Shown here piece by piece: positions 34,497-44,434 of a stretch of DNA of 44,434 nucleotides (its first letter is position 1; every line of letters begins with the position of its first letter). The translations under genes were made by a program, and so were the position numbers. Source of the stretch: Luminiphilus sp. GTDB taxonomy: Bacteria; Pseudomonadota; Gammaproteobacteria; Pseudomonadales; Halieaceae. The DNA lies in contig JADHQG010000009.1 in NCBI GenBank assembly GCA_016778045.1, forward strand, positions 1-44,434. Direction: 5' to 3'. The notes under the pieces were generated by a model. That model saw nothing but the letters and a program-made list of their open reading frames with translations. It had not been told where the DNA came from and did no database searches.

Positions 34497-35443
34497 TTCA
34501 AATCCACCTCGTCCAGCAAAGGCGTGGCCACCCAATCGTAGTGATCGACCTGCCCCTTCGGCCGACAGCGGAATCTTTTGTACTGCCACTGGTACTGTGA
34601 TTCATTGCCGGCAACCAGCTTCTCTACACCACGGTTGATTGCTGTGAGTGCTTCCAGCAGGTTGTCGCTCTGAACGGCGGGCTCGGCAGGCCGGTAAACG
34701 GCACGAAAACCTGTTGCGGTGCGCAAGACGGTGCCCATCACCGGTGCCGCACCCGACTTTCTGATCAAATTGCTGGCCAACGACGCAGTGAAGCAATCGA
34801 CCCCAAAAAAAGGCGCATTGAGGCCCGCTCTTTCATCACTGGGTACTTGGTCCGGAAGGATACCGGTGATCCCACCAGCCCTCACAGACCGCACTAATTC
34901 TGCAATACCCCGTGGCGTGGTGGGCACCAGCTTCCCGCCCGTACCTTGCCGACCGCGATGGACCAGCGCATCAAGCTTCTTCAGAGTAATCGGCTCGTAA
35001 AGGGCGACCAAATCACCGAGGGTAGCGAGGTGCATACCGAGTAACTCCCAGTTCCCGAGATGCGGACCCAGCACGATCACGCCTTGCCCTGTTGCGAGTG
35101 GCTCAGTCACATAGGTCAGCCCATCCACCTCAAGAAGCGCCTCAGTCCTGGACCAATGCTGCCTCCACAGCCGACCCATTTCGGCCATCAGCTCTCCCGT
35201 TGACTGGACGCTTTGTCGCGCCACCATTCTGCGCTGACTGGAGGTCCACTGTGGGTAAGCCAATTCGAGGTTTCGAATGGCCACTCGCCGCATGCGGCTA
35301 TTCAAGTGATACAGGCCCGCACCCACACCTCTCCCCAGCGCGCGCGCCCAAGCGAGGGGCATAAAACGCGTCACGGTGATCAACAGTCTGACAAGGAAAG
35401 CAACGGTCCATTCCAGCCAGAGTGGTTTAGGTGATGCGGGCAT
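34493..35443 (-). CDS. Lysophospholipid/lipid A acyltransferase (LpxL/HtrB family)
   Basis: Adds a secondary acyl chain to lipid A or a related lipid at the inner membrane. 316 residues: an N-terminal membrane anchor (about 12-32) and the family catalytic motif PHLGNWE (His128, Glu133), with [12 protein letters not shown] further on and [13 protein letters not shown] near the end. Whether it is LpxL, LpxM or a 2-hydroxyacyl version cannot be told from sequence alone. It is upstream of, and coupled to, djlA, and divergent from glyQ. Confidence 0.9.
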
Positions 35444-35481
35444 AGGTAAGGAGGAAATTGGCGCAGTCAGTGCTGGGAAAT

Positions 35482-35512
35482 TTGATTATGGCGCGGGCAA
35501 CGCAGTTATACT
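35482..35512 (+). promoter_or_regulatory. Promoter candidate for glyQ-glyS-rmuC
   Basis: TTGATT (35482-35487) and TATACT (35507-35512) with a 19-nt spacer, slightly long. The start would be near 35519, leaving only about 16-25 nt before the proposed glyQ TTG codon. Confidence 0.4.
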
Positions 35513-35534
35513 AACTGCTCTCATCGACTTTAGG

Positions 35535-36488
35535 TTGCATCCCTTGGCGCCTGCGACATTTCAAGAGGTTATCCTGCGGTTGCAGGATTACTGGGCCCAG
35601 CACGGCTGTGTGGTTTTGCAGCCCCTTGATATGGAGGTTGGCGCCGGAACCTTTCATCCCGCGACCTTTCTGCGCGCACTGGGCCCCGAAAACTGGAATG
35701 CCGCCTATGTGCAGCCCAGCCGCCGACCTGCAGATGGCCGCTACGGTGAAAACCCCAACCGCTTGCAGCACTACTATCAGTTTCAGGTGGTCATGAAACC
35801 ATCTCCTGCCGACTTCCAGGATCTCTACCTAGGTAGCCTGTTTGCGCTGGGCGTAGACCCACTCGTCCATGACATCCGCTTCGTAGAAGACAACTGGGAA
35901 TCGCCGACGCTGGGCGCTTGGGGTTTGGGGTGGGAGGTGTGGTTGAACGGCATGGAAGTCAGCCAGTTCACCTACTTTCAGCAGGCCGGCGGGCTGGAGT
36001 GTTACCCCGTTACGGGCGAGCTGACTTACGGCCTCGAGAGAATCGCAATGTACCTACAAGGCGTCGAGTCAGTTTACGACCTCGTATGGGCTAACACGCC
36101 GTCAGGCCCCGTGACCTATGGTGATGTGTACCATCAGAACGAAGTTGAGATGTCGACATTCAATTTTATCGAGGCTGATGTCGACTACCTGTTTTCACAG
36201 TTTGAGTTTTGTGAACGGGAAGCCCTAAGACTGGCCGAAAAGCAGCTACCGCTCCCCGCTTACGAGCACGTGATGAAAGCCTCACATACTTTCAACTTGT
36301 TAGACGCTCGCCATGCGATCGGCGTCACAGAGCGCCAGCGCTACATTTTGCGGGTCCGGGCACTGGCCAGATCAGCTGCCGAGGCCTATGTGGCATCAAG
36401 AGGAGCTTTGGGTTTTCCTCAGGCTGATCCGGACCTGGCCGCCGCCGCGCTCGCACAGCTGGCAGCAGCACAGGGCGAGACAGCATGA
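35535..36488 (+). CDS. glyQ: Glycyl-tRNA synthetase alpha subunit
   Basis: Class II catalytic subunit of the bacterial alpha2-beta2 enzyme. 317 residues from TTG 35535 (E. coli 303). Signatures: [20 protein letters not shown] (near 20), [19 protein letters not shown] (motif 2), [20 protein letters not shown], and the end motif [19 protein letters not shown]. An ATG 53 codons upstream is in frame but would add sequence with no family match and overlap lpxL. TTG at 35544 is another option, with TAGG about 9 nt ahead. The strong AAGGAGG at 35448-35454 does not serve any glyQ start well. Overlaps glyS by 4 nt. Confidence 0.93.
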
Positions 36489-38563
36489 GCACTTCGGACC
36501 TGCTTTTTGAGCTGGGCACGGAGGAACTCCCCGCTGGGGAGATTACCGCCATGGCCGAAGCGCTGTGCCGGGGCGTGACCACGGGACTGAACGAGCATGG
36601 GCTGCCATTTGGTACGGCACATCATTTTTCCACGCCGCGCCGACTGACCGTGTGGGTAGAGAATGTTGCCGCCAAAGGTCCCGATACAGATCAGCACGTA
36701 GTAGGTCCGCCCCTTAGCGCTGCGAGAGATGACCAAGGCCAATGGACCAAAGCCGCTGAAGGGTTTGCCCGAAAACAAGGCCTCACTCCTGACGACCTTT
36801 CTATCGTCGAGGAACAAGGCGTGGAAAGAATCGCCGTGAATGTGTCACACGTCGGCGCGGCGGCCACCGATGTGATTCCCAACATCATCAGTGCGGCTAT
36901 CTCCGCCATTCCTGTTTCGAAGCGGATGAGGTGGGGCCGCTCGCGCGATGAGTTTTTACGGCCAGTGCAATGGTTGCTGTTGTTATTTGGCGACAACGTG
37001 CTCCCTCTCGAGTTATTCGGGCTCAGGAGTGGCCGAGACAGTCGCGGTCACCGATTTCATCACAACGAGCCGGTGGCCATCTCTGAACCTTGCGCTTACC
37101 GCGAGACATTGCGCGAGGCGCGGGTACTGGTCGACAGTGAAGAGCGGCGGTCGCGTATCGCAGAGCAAGTCCTGGCACTGGCCAATCAGGGCGAGGCTGT
37201 CTCTCTGTCTGATGACTTGCTCGACGAGGTAACGGGTTTGGTGGAATGGCCAACAGCGCTACGTGGCAGTTTTGATCCCGCATTTCTGGATGTGCCAGCC
37301 CAAGCGCTGATTTCGGCGATGAAAACACACCAAAAGTACTTCCATCTTACCGATGCCAAGAGCGGCGCATTGCTGCCCACTTTCATCACAGTCTCCAATA
37401 TCGAGAGCCAGCAACCAGCGCAGGTCGTATCCGGTAACGAACGCGTAATCCGGCCACGCTTAAGCGACGCCGCATTTTTCTTTGCCAACGACAAACGGGT
37501 TACGCTGGCGTCAAGGCAAGAGCGCTTGGGGAGTGTGGTATTCCAGCAAAAACTGGGTAGCTTGCAAGATAAAACCGCGCGCATTGTCGCGAATGCGAGA
37601 CAGGTGGCGGCTCTTATCGACGCGGATGTCGATGTTGCCGAAAGGGCCGCGCAGCTGAGCAAGTGTGACCTCGTCTCAGAAATGGTGCTCGAATTTCCCG
37701 AGCTGCAAGGTATCGCCGGCGGGCACTATGCGAAACATGATGGGGAGTCAGCGGCCGTCTCAGAAGCTATCGAGTCACACTATTACCCGCGATTCGCTGG
37801 AGACGACTTACCTCCCTCTCCGGAGGCGATGTCAGTTGCCCTCGCAGATCGGCTCGATACATTGGTCGGCATTTTTGGCATTGGCGAGCCACCAACGGGC
37901 TCAAAAGATCCTTTTGCACTGCGCCGGACATCTCTGGCAGTGATCAGAATGCTCATTAATTTGGGTAGACCCCTGCCCCTCAACACTTTGCTTCAGTCTG
38001 CCTGTGACCAGCACGCTGCCGAGCTGGCACCCGATACAGCTGAGGCGGTAGCGCAGTACATCCTAGAGCGACTTGGCAGCTGGTACGACGACGACGATAT
38101 TCATATCTCGGTAGTGCGGGCTGCGCTGGCTAGTGGCAGCCAAGACCTTTACGACGCAGACCTTCGCGTCCGTGCGCTGGCCGCCTTTGCAAAAAGCGAT
38201 ACTGCTGAGCATCTTGCTGCGGCCAACAAACGGGTCGCGAATATTCTCGCTAAGGCCGAGAGCGCCGAAAGCGCCACTTCTCCAGACCCAGAGCTGTTTG
38301 TCGAACCAGCTGAGACGGCCCTCTACGAAGCGATTAAAGTCAGCGGTGACAATTTGGCACCCCTTCTCGCCGAGCGGAACTACCAGAGCGCTCTGGACCA
38401 GCTAGCCCAACTACGAGGGCCGGTCGACGCTTTCTTCGATACGGTCATGGTCAATGCAGAGCACCCCGCGGAGCGTTCGAACCGGCTGAGGCTGCTCGGC
38501 GAACTCCGCGCACTGTTTACGCAAGTGGCTGATCTGGCATTGCTCTCGTCGGCGGCCGAGTGA
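36485..38563 (+). CDS. glyS: Glycyl-tRNA synthetase beta subunit
   Basis: Binds and positions tRNA-Gly for the alpha subunit. 692 residues (E. coli 689) starting [16 protein letters not shown], with [20 protein letters not shown] near 145, [16 protein letters not shown] near 280, and [10 protein letters not shown]; the C-terminal half is the helical tRNA-binding region with [17 protein letters not shown] 36485 overlaps the glyQ stop (ATGA), tight coupling expected for subunits made in equal number. Confidence 0.98.
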
Positions 38564-39930
38564 CTTCAGGCGCCTTATTCTGGATAGGACTGGCGGCGGC
38601 CAGCGGCGCGGGTTTGCTTTACAGTTTGCTTCAACTAAGCAAGCGACGTCAGGAACTGACGACGCTGCAAGCGGAGTTAGTGGCGCAATCGACTTCAGCA
38701 ACTCTGGCCGCTGAGCGCACTCGCAAGCTAGAGGCTGAGCTGGCTACGCTGCAACAAACCTTGACGGACCTCAATGCGCAGTTGAGCGCGCAGACGGCCA
38801 CGCTGTCCGAGCGCGGCTCGCATCACCAGCAACAGATGAAATGGGTCGAGGAATCGCGCAGCACCCTTCGAGCCGAGCTGGAGGTCATTGGTCAAAAGTT
38901 GCTGTCATCGTCAGGTAAAGCGCTGGAGACCACAAATCAAAAAAGTCTGGACAGCCTGCTCAAACCGTTAGCCGAGAAGATCGACCAGTTTCAAACACGC
39001 GTGAATCAAGTACACACTGACATGGTGCGCAACAGCGCGTCGCTGAGTGAGCAAATCAAGCACCTCGAGTCGGTCGGGGTATCGATGTCAGGCGAGGCAC
39101 AAAACCTCACTCGCGCTCTTAAGGGCGACAAAAAATTAGTCGGCAACTGGGGAGAAGCGCAGCTCGAGAAAACCCTGGAGCTGGCCGGACTTCGCCGGGG
39201 CGAGCATTACGACGCTCAGGTGGCATTCAAGGATGAGCAGGGGGACCGCCACCTGCCAGATTTTGTTATTCGACTGCCCGAGGGGAAAAACCTCATCGTC
39301 GACAGCAAGGTCTCTCTTGTGGACTATGAGCGGGCGGTAACCGCCGAGAGTGATACCGAGCGAGCCGCCGCACTCGAGGCGCATGCAAAGGCGGTTCGCA
39401 ATCATATCGATGCCCTTTCCGCGAAAGATTACGCAAACCTGCCTGGCATGGAGAGCCCTGACTTCGTATTGATGTTTATGCCGGTAGAGCCCGCTTATAT
39501 TGAGGTCATGCGCAGCCATCGAGAGCTTTTTAATCACGGATACCAGAGAAACGTGGTGCTGGTGTCACATACGACACTCATGCCGATTCTCCGAACAGTC
39601 GCCAATCTGTGGATGATCGAGCACAGCAACCAGGAGGCACGAGAAATCAGCGAACGTGCTGGCGACATCTACAACACGGTTTGCCTGCTGGGAGAGCGGC
39701 TGTTCGCACTAGGTTCGTCAATTTCAACGACCGCGAATCGCTACAACGACGCAGTCAAAGCAGTTCAGGGAAAACAAGGGCTACTCGGGAAGGTCTCTCG
39801 GTTTCGCTCGCTGTCGCAGCGAGCCAACAAATCTTTTCCAGAGACGCTGGCCCCTATCGAGCCCGATGTAGAGAACATGCGCCTCGAAGATTTAGAAGAC
39901 ATCGAGTCCGGGCAGCCGGATACCGAGTAA
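38560..39930 (+). CDS. rmuC: DNA recombination protein RmuC
   Basis: Predicted nuclease-related protein that limits DNA rearrangement; its exact activity is unclear. 456 residues: an N-terminal membrane-anchor segment (about 5-25), a long coiled coil (about 26-110, rich in Glu, Gln, Leu, Ala), then the RmuC domain with GNWGEAQLEKTLELAGL, RHLPDFVIRLPEGKNLIVDSK split across about 225-250, and FMPVEPAYIEV. The Asp and Asp-Ser-Lys positions resemble the restriction-endonuclease fold. GTG 38560 overlaps the glyS stop (GTGA). Third gene of the operon. Confidence 0.93.
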   Translation: MTSGALFWIGLAAASGAGLLYSLLQLSKRRQELTTLQAELVAQSTSATLAAERTRKLEAELATLQQTLTDLNAQLSAQTATLSERGSHHQQQMKWVEESRSTLRAELEVIGQKLLSSSGKALETTNQKSLDSLLKPLAEKIDQFQTRVNQVHTDMVRNSASLSEQIKHLESVGVSMSGEAQNLTRALKGDKKLVGNWGEAQLEKTLELAGLRRGEHYDAQVAFKDEQGDRHLPDFVIRLPEGKNLIVDSKVSLVDYERAVTAESDTERAAALEAHAKAVRNHIDALSAKDYANLPGMESPDFVLMFMPVEPAYIEVMRSHRELFNHGYQRNVVLVSHTTLMPILRTVANLWMIEHSNQEAREISERAGDIYNTVCLLGERLFALGSSISTTANRYNDAVKAVQGKQGLLGKVSRFRSLSQRANKSFPETLAPIEPDVENMRLEDLEDIESGQPDTE

Positions 39931-40086: not shown

Positions 40087-42528
<2,442 letters not shown>

Positions 42529-42578: not shown

Positions 42579-43658
42579 TCAGGCGCCGCAAGCCGTCACA
42601 TGCCCCTGTTCCACGTGGAACATTTGCAAGGGCTCACCGCCCCAAGCGGCTTCCAGCGAACCACGATCCACCGCCGTCAACACCACCTGCCGCCCAGACG
42701 CCAATTGCGAACACACGCTGGCGCAGTGGTTTTTGTCCAACTCTGCTGGCAAATCATCGACCAGATAGAGCGGCGAGCGCGCGGCCGCACGCTCCACCAG
42801 ACGACCCTGAACCAGTTTTAACGCCACCACCAGCAGTTTCATCTGGCCGCGCGACAATAGGTCCGATGCGGCCACGCCCTCAACAATGAGGCGAAGATCT
42901 GCCCGATGCGGCCCAATCTGCGTAAACCCCTGCGCCGCATCGCTCGCAGCCGACCGCTCCAGCGCCTCTGATAACGTCACGCTTCGATCCCAACCAGGCC
43001 GAAACACTACCTGCACAGCCGCCAAATCAGAGGAGATCACTGGGCCTAGGGCGGCCAATTCAACTGCCAGCTCTGTAGCGATCCTGGCTCGCGCGTCTGT
43101 TAATTGCTCGCCAATTTGAGCTAGCTCAGCGCGCCATGCTGCGTCGCTGGTAATGATACCACGTCGCAAACCACTATTTCGCTGCCGAACCGCTTTCGCG
43201 TACCGCCTCCACAACAGCAAGAACTCCTGTTCCACGTGGAACAATGTGCCATCCAAAAGGCGCCGCCGCCCTTCAGGCGGGCCCGTCACCACGCCCAGCG
43301 AATCGGTATCAAAAACAATGAGCGGGAGATTCTGCGCCAACTCAGACAGCGAGGGCGCGTTCTGCCCGGCGACTCGAGCACGCACAGCGCCATCGCGATG
43401 TTTCTCAACACCCATGGTCACCTTGTGGCCTGCTGTCTCGACGCGACCGACCACTCGGCAGAAGTCTGTGTTGTGTTGAATGACGGGCTTAGACTGGTGT
43501 GTGCGGAATGACCGACCCACGCCCAAAAGGTGTATCGCCTCTAAGAAACTGGTTTTACCTGACCCATTCGCGCCGTATAGCGCGGAAGCGCCTAGTGGCA
43601 ACGCCACCTTGACATCAGACAGGTTTCTGACGCCCTCTATCGACACGTGCTCCAACAT
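42579..43658 (-). CDS. recF: DNA replication and repair protein RecF
   Basis: SMC-like ATPase that loads RecA at gaps with RecO and RecR. 359 residues: Walker A GANGSGKTS (29-37), ABC signature LLSRGQMKLL, Walker B LYLVDDLPAELD, and RRRLLDGTLFHVEQEFL near 131-147. ATG 43658. The codons for Phe-His-Val-Glu-Gln at residues 140-144 and again at 347-351 form two perfect parS sites. The gene lies 21 nt after dnaN and is probably co-transcribed with it and gyrB. Confidence 0.98.
   Translation of the reverse strand: MLEHVSIEGVRNLSDVKVALPLGASALYGANGSGKTSFLEAIHLLGVGRSFRTHQSKPVIQHNTDFCRVVGRVETAGHKVTMGVEKHRDGAVRARVAGQNAPSLSELAQNLPLIVFDTDSLGVVTGPPEGRRRLLDGTLFHVEQEFLLLWRRYAKAVRQRNSGLRRGIITSDAAWRAELAQIGEQLTDARARIATELAVELAALGPVISSDLAAVQVVFRPGWDRSVTLSEALERSAASDAAQGFTQIGPHRADLRLIVEGVAASDLLSRGQMKLLVVALKLVQGRLVERAAARSPLYLVDDLPAELDKNHCASVCSQLASGRQVVLTAVDRGSLEAAWGGEPLQMFHVEQGHVTACGA
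42607..42622. promoter_or_regulatory. parS: ParB-binding centromere site parS, recF 3' end
   Basis: TGTTCCACGTGGAACA is a perfect 16-bp palindrome identical to the parS form known from Pseudomonas (general consensus TGTTTCACGTGAAACA). It lies near the recF stop, encoding Phe-His-Val-Glu-Gln, and close to the predicted origin, where ParABS nucleation sites cluster. Confidence 0.92.
43228..43243. promoter_or_regulatory. parS: ParB-binding centromere site parS, within recF
   Basis: A second identical TGTTCCACGTGGAACA, 621 bp from the first (start to start). It too encodes Phe-His-Val-Glu-Gln in RecF (residues 140-144). Two perfect copies so close, next to the origin, are very unlikely by chance. 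Confidence 0.92.
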
Positions 43659-43679: not shown

Positions 43680-44434
43680 TCAGAGCCTCATCGGCATGAC
43701 GACATACAGTCGCTCAGGCTCTTGGTCAGAGGGCGGTTCCGCGTGCTCCAGCAGGGCAGAGCTGGCCTCATCAGAGAGTGATAGTTTGACCTGAGACTGA
43801 CTCAAAACCGACAGCACATCGAGTAAGTAACTGACATTAAACCCAATTTCAAGCTCTGCGCCAGTATAATCTACCGCCACCACTTCTTCGGCCTGCTCTT
43901 GCTCGGGGTTGTTCGCTGTAATATCCAGATTATTATCAGATAGCTTCAAGCGGACCCCACGATATTTCTCGTTAGATAGGATCGCCGTCCGCGTGAATGC
44001 CTGCTTGAGCTCGGCGCGGTCGCCTACCACTGACTTGTCGGCATTTTTCGGGATTACACGCTCATAATCGGGGAACTTGCCGTCAACAAGCTTGGACGTA
44101 AAGGTAAACTGCTCGTTTGTCGCCCGGATATGATTGCTGCCAATGGTCAACTCCAGGGGCGCGTCACCCTCGAGCAAGCGGGATAGTTCGAGCACACCCT
44201 TGCGAGGAATGATAACACCAGTGTCAGCTGCCTCGACCCTGTCGGGGCCCGTCGCCAACGCCAGGCGGTGCCCATCAGTAGCAACCACGCGAAGCCTGCC
44301 GCCCAACACCTCAAAATACAGGCCATTCAAGTAATAGCGAACATCCTGCTGAGCCATGGCAAAAGCAGTGCCATCAATCAGCTGTTTCACCAACGACTGC
44401 TGGAGTGACAGCGCCACATCGCCCGCACCGGCCT
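43680..44434 (-). CDS. dnaN: DNA polymerase III beta clamp, N-terminal part cut by the window edge
   Basis: Sliding clamp that tethers polymerase III to DNA. The last 251 codons or so of a roughly 366-residue protein are present; the start is beyond 44434. Visible: LVKQLIDGTAFAMAQQDVRY, LYFEVLGGRLRVVATDGHRL, the PRKGVLELSRLL region of the second domain, and the C-terminal RLYVVMPMRL, part of the protein-binding pocket. The adjacent recF and gyrB give the classical dnaA-dnaN-recF-gyrB order, which predicts dnaA and oriC just to the right. Confidence 0.98.
   Translation of the reverse strand, partial: AGAGDVALSLQQSLVKQLIDGTAFAMAQQDVRYYLNGLYFEVLGGRLRVVATDGHRLALATGPDRVEAADTGVIIPRKGVLELSRLLEGDAPLELTIGSNHIRATNEQFTFTSKLVDGKFPDYERVIPKNADKSVVGDRAELKQAFTRTAILSNEKYRGVRLKLSDNNLDITANNPEQEQAEEVVAVDYTGAELEIGFNVSYLLDVLSVLSQSQVKLSLSDEASSALLEHAEPPSDQEPERLYVVMPMRL

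Follow-up and report, generated by a model that had tools for sequence, protein, structure and literature searches.

In the ParABS system of chromosome segregation, ParB is loaded onto the DNA at parS, from where it spreads, and the resulting complex is moved by ParA. Where do parS sites lie in the systems closest to the one described here? The nearest described arrangement is that of Pseudomonas aeruginosa. In the available parts of three reports, parS1 and parS2 of this organism are placed within recF, and parS2 is the 16-mer that concerns us below (PMC5521831, PMC3909081, PMC4368675). According to the accessible text of PMC4368675, parS2 and parS3 of strain PAO1 carry the exact 16-mer while parS1 is off at its last base; nine of the ten parS sites most likely lie inside coding sequences; the intragenic sites were disabled by mutations that kept the amino acids; and any single one of parS1–4 suffices for segregation. 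The two recF sites of PAO1 are the parS nearest to oriC, at about 4 kb, with parAB about 7 kb away on the other side of oriC. Do they also regulate the genes around them? An excess of ParB lowered expression over most of PA0003–PA0015, and in the parB-null and parS-null strains expression rose only in PA0010–PA0015, the genes beside the intergenic sites (PMC5521831, in the part available). Since only those genes went up, that part of the report leaves regulation of recF or gyrB through the sites, at normal levels of ParB, unsupported in P. aeruginosa.

Two other systems bear comparison. When a parS-bearing transposon was added to Caulobacter crescentus it was enriched in a hot spot that covers recF, gyrB and one other gene; the authors call the reason unknown (PMC5815017, in the part available). 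However, the native parS cluster of Caulobacter lies elsewhere, and the transposon work deals with an extra parS cluster instead of sites that are dual-coding. Escherichia coli K-12, which is without chromosomal ParABS, has recF in the order gyrB–recF–dnaN–dnaA, but it has no site: at the two RecF columns considered below it reads TGC TTT CAC AAC GAA CCC and ATG TTT ACC GTG GAA AAG.

Two parS sites in recF are thus not new, being in print for P. aeruginosa. What seems to be new is the class-wide fixity of parS in recF and the imprint of the site on the RecF sequence. The literature searched, whose scope excludes the older parS surveys, holds in its available parts no report of class-wide conservation of parS in recF; this applies to the accessible text of PMC5521831, PMC3909081, PMC5815017, PMC4368675, PMC7022226, PMC7383237, PMC8743542 and PMC5603330.

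The recF locus of Luminiphilus

The window, that is the whole stretch of DNA analysed, is a contig of 44434 bases from Luminiphilus sp. The features that matter here are as follows.

40087–42522, minus strand: gyrB, the downstream neighbour of recF (NF011501, 1273.9 bits)
42579–43658, minus strand: recF, host of both sites, an ORF of 359 aa (TIGR00611, 303.4 bits, cut-off 172)
42607–42622, no strand assigned: predicted parS site 2, TGTTCCACGTGGAACA, RecF codons 346–351 (M-F-H-V-E-Q), exact palindrome
43228–43243, no strand assigned: predicted parS site 1, TGTTCCACGTGGAACA, RecF codons 139–144 (L-F-H-V-E-Q), exact palindrome
43680–44432, minus strand: dnaN, its 5' part absent at the contig end (TIGR00663, 227.6 bits, profile positions 124–367 of 367)

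The local gene order is dnaN–recF–gyrB. The recF product covers positions 1–338 of the 339 in the TIGR00611 profile, and its nearest named relatives are RecFs from Luminiphilus sp. and Halieaceae bacterium metagenome assemblies, at 66–75% protein identity. Two alignments to RecF structures in the PDB end at query residue 334, short of site 2. Beyond gyrB, at 35376–39930 of the window, glyQ-, glyS- and RmuC-like ORFs (names by eye) lie on the plus strand, convergent towards gyrB, with a four-base overlap between each and the next.

A search of the window gave the two exact copies of TGTTCCACGTGGAACA listed above, in one common reading phase of recF, as the preliminary description had claimed, and no further copy at up to three mismatches. 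In 100 dinucleotide shuffles the mean was 0.15 matches at up to three mismatches, and two matches were reached in one shuffle. The source assembly comprises 1.87 Mb in 110 contigs and is 68% complete; within it neither the 16-mer, apart from the pair, nor the reversed-pattern control has any match at up to two mismatches. On the shuffles and the reversed-pattern controls, a chance origin of the pair was rejected. Both copies agree exactly with the 16-bp palindromic parS consensus TGTTYCACGTGRAACA. They are few and close to the origin: the pair stands one gene from the contig end in dnaN, and oriC lies beyond the contig. The assignment to the Pseudomonas type of ParB site is strongly supported, the 16-mer being identical to parS2 and parS3 of P. 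aeruginosa, and the proposed origin-proximal position is matched by that organism, where the two sites nearest to oriC are also in recF. The similar residues claimed for RecF relatives are found as well, E. coli RecF reading C-F-H-N-E-P and M-F-T-V-E-K at the matching columns.

Sites and ParB in the genus and the class

How constant is the pair among congeners? The exact 16-mer occurs in 50 of 57 genus genomes, the source included (two copies in 39, one in 10 and three in one, G008). It is absent from the other seven; in the four of these that were examined (G007, G009, G012 and G050), no RecF match exceeds the cut-off. We searched ten near-complete genus genomes (96–100% completeness) at up to two mismatches. 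Nine of them have a single pair only, the members lying 618–624 bp apart; G040 has one mismatch in one member of its pair, and G025 has one additional match at two mismatches. The reversed pattern, searched in the same way, gave seven matches over the ten congeners, spread over five of them, so isolated matches at two mismatches are meaningless. The position of the pair in recF was established by tblastn in G006, G016, G031, G040 and G049 and deduced from the spacing in the other five. Neither in the source assembly nor in these congeners is the 16-mer scattered over the genome. Here the arrangement differs from that of PAO1, whose ten parS sites, in the parts of the reports available, include parS3 and parS4 among the four nearest to oriC; in Luminiphilus the recF pair stands alone at up to two mismatches.

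Is there a ParB to bind the sites? The preliminary description had made its reading depend on parA and parB being present. In the source assembly parB was undetected, the assembly being incomplete and its contig broken in dnaN. On the other hand, of the remaining 56 genomes of the genus 48 encode ParB, and in nine of the ten near-complete congeners parB lies on the same contig as the pair, 11.3–11.9 kb from it; in G004 it lies on another contig. The presence of parB is therefore borne out for most congeners, at some 11–12 kb wherever contigs permit the measurement, and not for the source assembly itself. At one congener locus (L077) parA adjoins parB, with an rsmG-like ORF beside parA (names by eye). 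The best PDB matches of this congener ParB are ParB/Spo0J chains, Noc chains being weaker. The protein reads GKSR...AGHA, and its equivalence to Arg173 and Gly201 of Caulobacter, which separate the ParB from the Noc type in the available part of the source, was judged by eye only. Since no parB is detectable in the incomplete assembly of the source organism, we infer ParB binding at its sites.

Is the placement a property of the genus, or of a larger group? We surveyed the class, which in the genome sampler we take to be Gammaproteobacteria in the wide sense, the former Betaproteobacteria included. In a search of 274 class genomes with the RecF model, 273 had a match, and in 224 the match exceeded the cut-off. 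From the best-scoring 150 of the matches listed with coordinates we kept 148 recFs, one per genome (30 loci and 118 fetched), leaving out the second recF of G365 and the recF of G299, which is at a contig end. The sample leans to high-scoring RecFs; the presence of a site was no selection criterion.

A site within one mismatch of TGTTYCACGTGRAACA is present in 133 of the 148 recFs; 106 have two sites and 15 have neither. Site 1 is found in 123 and site 2 in 116, always at the same RecF columns, and all 239 sites are in one reading phase. Paired sites are 612–651 nt apart, with a median of 621 nt. An exact-consensus site, in one or more copies, occurs in 179 of the 274 genomes, against one match in total for the reversed pattern. 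Within the 148 genomes, 157 of the 187 exact sites lie inside recF, a count that stands apart from mismatched sites, which can also function. An exact site of any kind occurs in 113 of these genomes, and in 93 of the 113 every one is in recF; the other 35 are without any.

The rule has exceptions. Among the 15 genomes whose recF is siteless, 13 have a ParB match (11 strong and two weak, in G144 and G282), so ParABS does not require sites in recF. One genome, G096, has seven exact sites, none of them exact in recF. In six members of family f224 (L238, L244, L245, L246, L250 and L255) site 2 encodes MFHVEH and reads CATGTG in all six despite the presence of ParB; with CAT for CAC, the palindrome of site 2 is broken by a single synonymous base. 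In G225 (L362, 1924–1939) a parS with one mismatch is found 23 bases further downstream than the aligned place of site 1, in another frame, where it encodes G-S-T-W-N. It is as if the DNA site were kept while the peptide changes, in a single case from a fragmented 90% draft with no ParB match. Runs of exact 16-mers were also seen from near the recF C-terminus onward downstream: six in Halochromatium glycolicum (L028, 11004–14512) and five in a gammaproteobacterial MAG (L027, 3995–5232).

Codon constraint and the loss of ParB

If the sites were kept for the sake of the peptide, their codons should be no more uniform than those elsewhere. We measured codon purity, the share of the commonest codon, in the 127 degenerate RecF columns that have a majority residue. 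The seven purest columns are all parS codons; the eighth has a purity of 0.77 and the median is 0.36. At site 1 the values are 0.98 for Glu143 (GAA, 110/112), 0.98 for Val142 (GTG, 122/125), 0.96 for His141 (CAC, 129/134) and 0.95 for Val139 (GTG, 71/75); at site 2 they are 0.97 for Glu350 (GAA, 101/104), 0.97 for His348 (CAC, 122/126) and 0.94 for Val349 (GTG, 123/131). Elsewhere in the same recFs GTG makes up 33% of the Val codons, CAC 40% of the His codons and GAA 54% of the Glu codons. The Phe codons of the palindrome fall outside the pure set, TTC and TTT standing at 76:72 and 66:73, a roughly even split that the C/T position of the consensus permits. Protein conservation as the sole cause was rejected on codon purity.

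The constraint also has edges. The third base of codon 6 lies outside the 16-mer, and at site 1 we counted 11 CAG and nine CAA, against a background of 51:49, and 36 CAT and 17 CAC, near the background of 60:40. At the other end the first base of codon 1 is outside, and the residues there are mostly Val, Leu or Met, with NTG codons. Because usage is near background at the first base past the palindrome, the constraint shares the palindrome's edges. Within those edges the bases covary. At site 1, Lys (AAA) in place of Glu (GAA) accompanies none of 68 TTC codons and 16 of 56 TTT codons (Fisher 7.7e-7, relatedness ignored); at site 2 it accompanies five of 61 and 22 of 61 (Fisher 3.5e-4, relatedness again ignored). 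Mean third-position GC differs between the covariation groups, from 0.45 to 0.55. For this reason, and because relatedness is ignored, we treat the covariation as supporting evidence only. The nucleotides of the palindrome are nevertheless kept far past the need of the protein, which supports the earlier suggestion that protein and centromere constrain one another, in an overlapping code.

What becomes of the sites when ParB is lost? The order that we compared includes G346 and, judging from RecF similarity and the tree, E. coli as well; it comprises 119 genomes, 111 of them with recF. The comparison took 92 of these recFs and that of E. coli K-12; ParB is present in each of the 19 not used. 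At least one of the two sites has the CACGTG core in 49 of the 67 recFs accompanied by a chromosomal-type ParB, against none of the 26 without it (25 together with G445, whose strong ParB match is on a second contig only). At up to one mismatch the corresponding counts are 60 of 67 and two of 26; site 1 taken alone is present at that level in 26 of the 67 ParB-bearing genomes. The two exceptions, L260 and L279, are ParB-less relatives of E. coli that read TTC CGC GTG GAA CA at site 2. One base off parS, these are perhaps fossils of a lost centromere.

A Fisher test of CACGTG against ParB gives 1.3e-11 with relatedness ignored. On the RecF tree, which was built with the site columns included, the ParB label needs two changes only. 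With just two losses of ParB the 26 recFs are not independent, and we set the Fisher p aside as evidence of association. The smaller of the losses (family f222) is uninformative, since four of the five adjoining ParB-bearing rows of f207 also lack the core. A further case lies outside the order sample, in family f63: G267, of 1.0 Mb, 99% complete and with no ParB match, has two to three mismatches at the two sites, against none or one in its congener G122, in which ParB is present. G226 and G309 have no ParB match, yet at least one exact site is in place; being drafts in hundreds of contigs, they may lack ParB only in the assembly.

Which residues of RecF, then, belong to the protein and which to the site? 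In the ParB-less recFs F-H is found at site 1 in 21 of 25, and Val follows in none of 26; at site 2 the third motif position is V or I in 22 of 25, and the second is His in five. Where ParB is present, 34 of 67 recFs have V at site 1 and 61 of 67 have His at site 2. We also examined 20 recFs of the same phylum, drawn from the better-scoring ones in its other classes. None of these 20 has a site within two mismatches, and 11 have F-x-V at site 2. The simplest history would be that F at site 1 and F-x-V at site 2 are RecF's own, the rest having been added with parS when the class arose or soon before or after. The synonymous codons appear to have been fixed by selection for the DNA site, which also seems to have dictated several residues of RecF, V142 and H348 most clearly.

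A probable centromere within a gene, and its alternatives

We conclude that the two 16-mers are almost certainly chromosomal parS sites, ParABS nucleation points next to oriC that are dual-coding in RecF. Our own data provide the position, the palindrome, the codon-level constraint, the scarcity of the sites and the parA and parB of congeners near them. Binding by ParB in the source organism, and a role in segregation, would follow by analogy with the identical P. aeruginosa sequence. On this model ParB dimers would load at the recF pair, besides which no parS was detected in the lineage at up to two mismatches, and spread over dnaN–recF–gyrB; ParA would then move the ParB complex and in this way part the new origins. 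The same 16 bases also encode x-F-H-V-E-x in RecF, at two fixed columns.

Might FHVEQ simply be a conserved RecF motif, the match of its codons to parS a coincidental by-product? Parts of the motif do occur in siteless RecFs (F-H-x at site 1 and F-x-V at site 2, as in the CFHNEP and MFTVEK of E. coli). However, the His, Val and Glu codons of the palindrome are 94–98% uniform, against 33–54% elsewhere, and the uniformity ends at the palindrome's edge; moreover the 26 ParB-less recFs have no Val at site 1 and only five His at site 2. We consider this explanation highly improbable. The codon data by themselves show a constraint on nucleotides and not its cause, and that leaves room for a signal unrelated to ParB: a site for some other DNA-binding protein, a CACGTG modification site or an mRNA hairpin. 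Yet the full 16 bp is a measured ParB site, in the available parts of the P. aeruginosa reports; the CACGTG core is lost in the ParB-less clade; and the sites have two or three mismatches in G267, which has no ParB match, against none or one in its ParB-bearing congener G122. A signal of this kind is very unlikely to be the reason for the sites.

The pair might also consist of old, inactive ParB sites, the working centromere lying in the missing part of the genome. The assembly is only 68% complete and ends beside oriC, and P. aeruginosa, as far as the available text goes, has additional parS sites. But nine of the ten congeners of 96–100% completeness have one pair only, and the tenth adds a single match at two mismatches; two perfect palindromes, furthermore, would hardly persist without selection. 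Inactivity of the pair thus seems to us improbable in a high degree, and active, dual-coding parS remains the reading that we prefer.

What do such sites mean for the class? The usual description of parS is that it is loosely origin-proximal. The survey suggests that most exact-consensus parS across the class have kept to two invariant codon positions in recF, and that a centromere wrote part of a conserved protein. This makes recF a natural case of an overlapping code with internal controls, namely the codon edge, the covariation within the palindrome and the loss of ParB. It also calls for caution in reading the conservation of RecF residues, and it makes recF alone a means of guessing the centromere of a species. 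The question of parS placement becomes testable, given the hot spot for parS insertion at recF–gyrB in Caulobacter (PMC5815017, in the part available).

A further step is possible but doubtful. The gammaproteobacterial centromere may have had its original place in the dnaA–dnaN–recF–gyrB segment and been held there because the loading of ParB at that place is itself useful; the sites would then be a functional link and not a chance result of where there was room. If so, the occupancy and spreading of ParB would tie the segregation of origins to the expression of replication genes or to RecF-dependent fork repair, and the F-H-V-E peptide of RecF would have been imposed by the centromere, the protein then being tuned around it.
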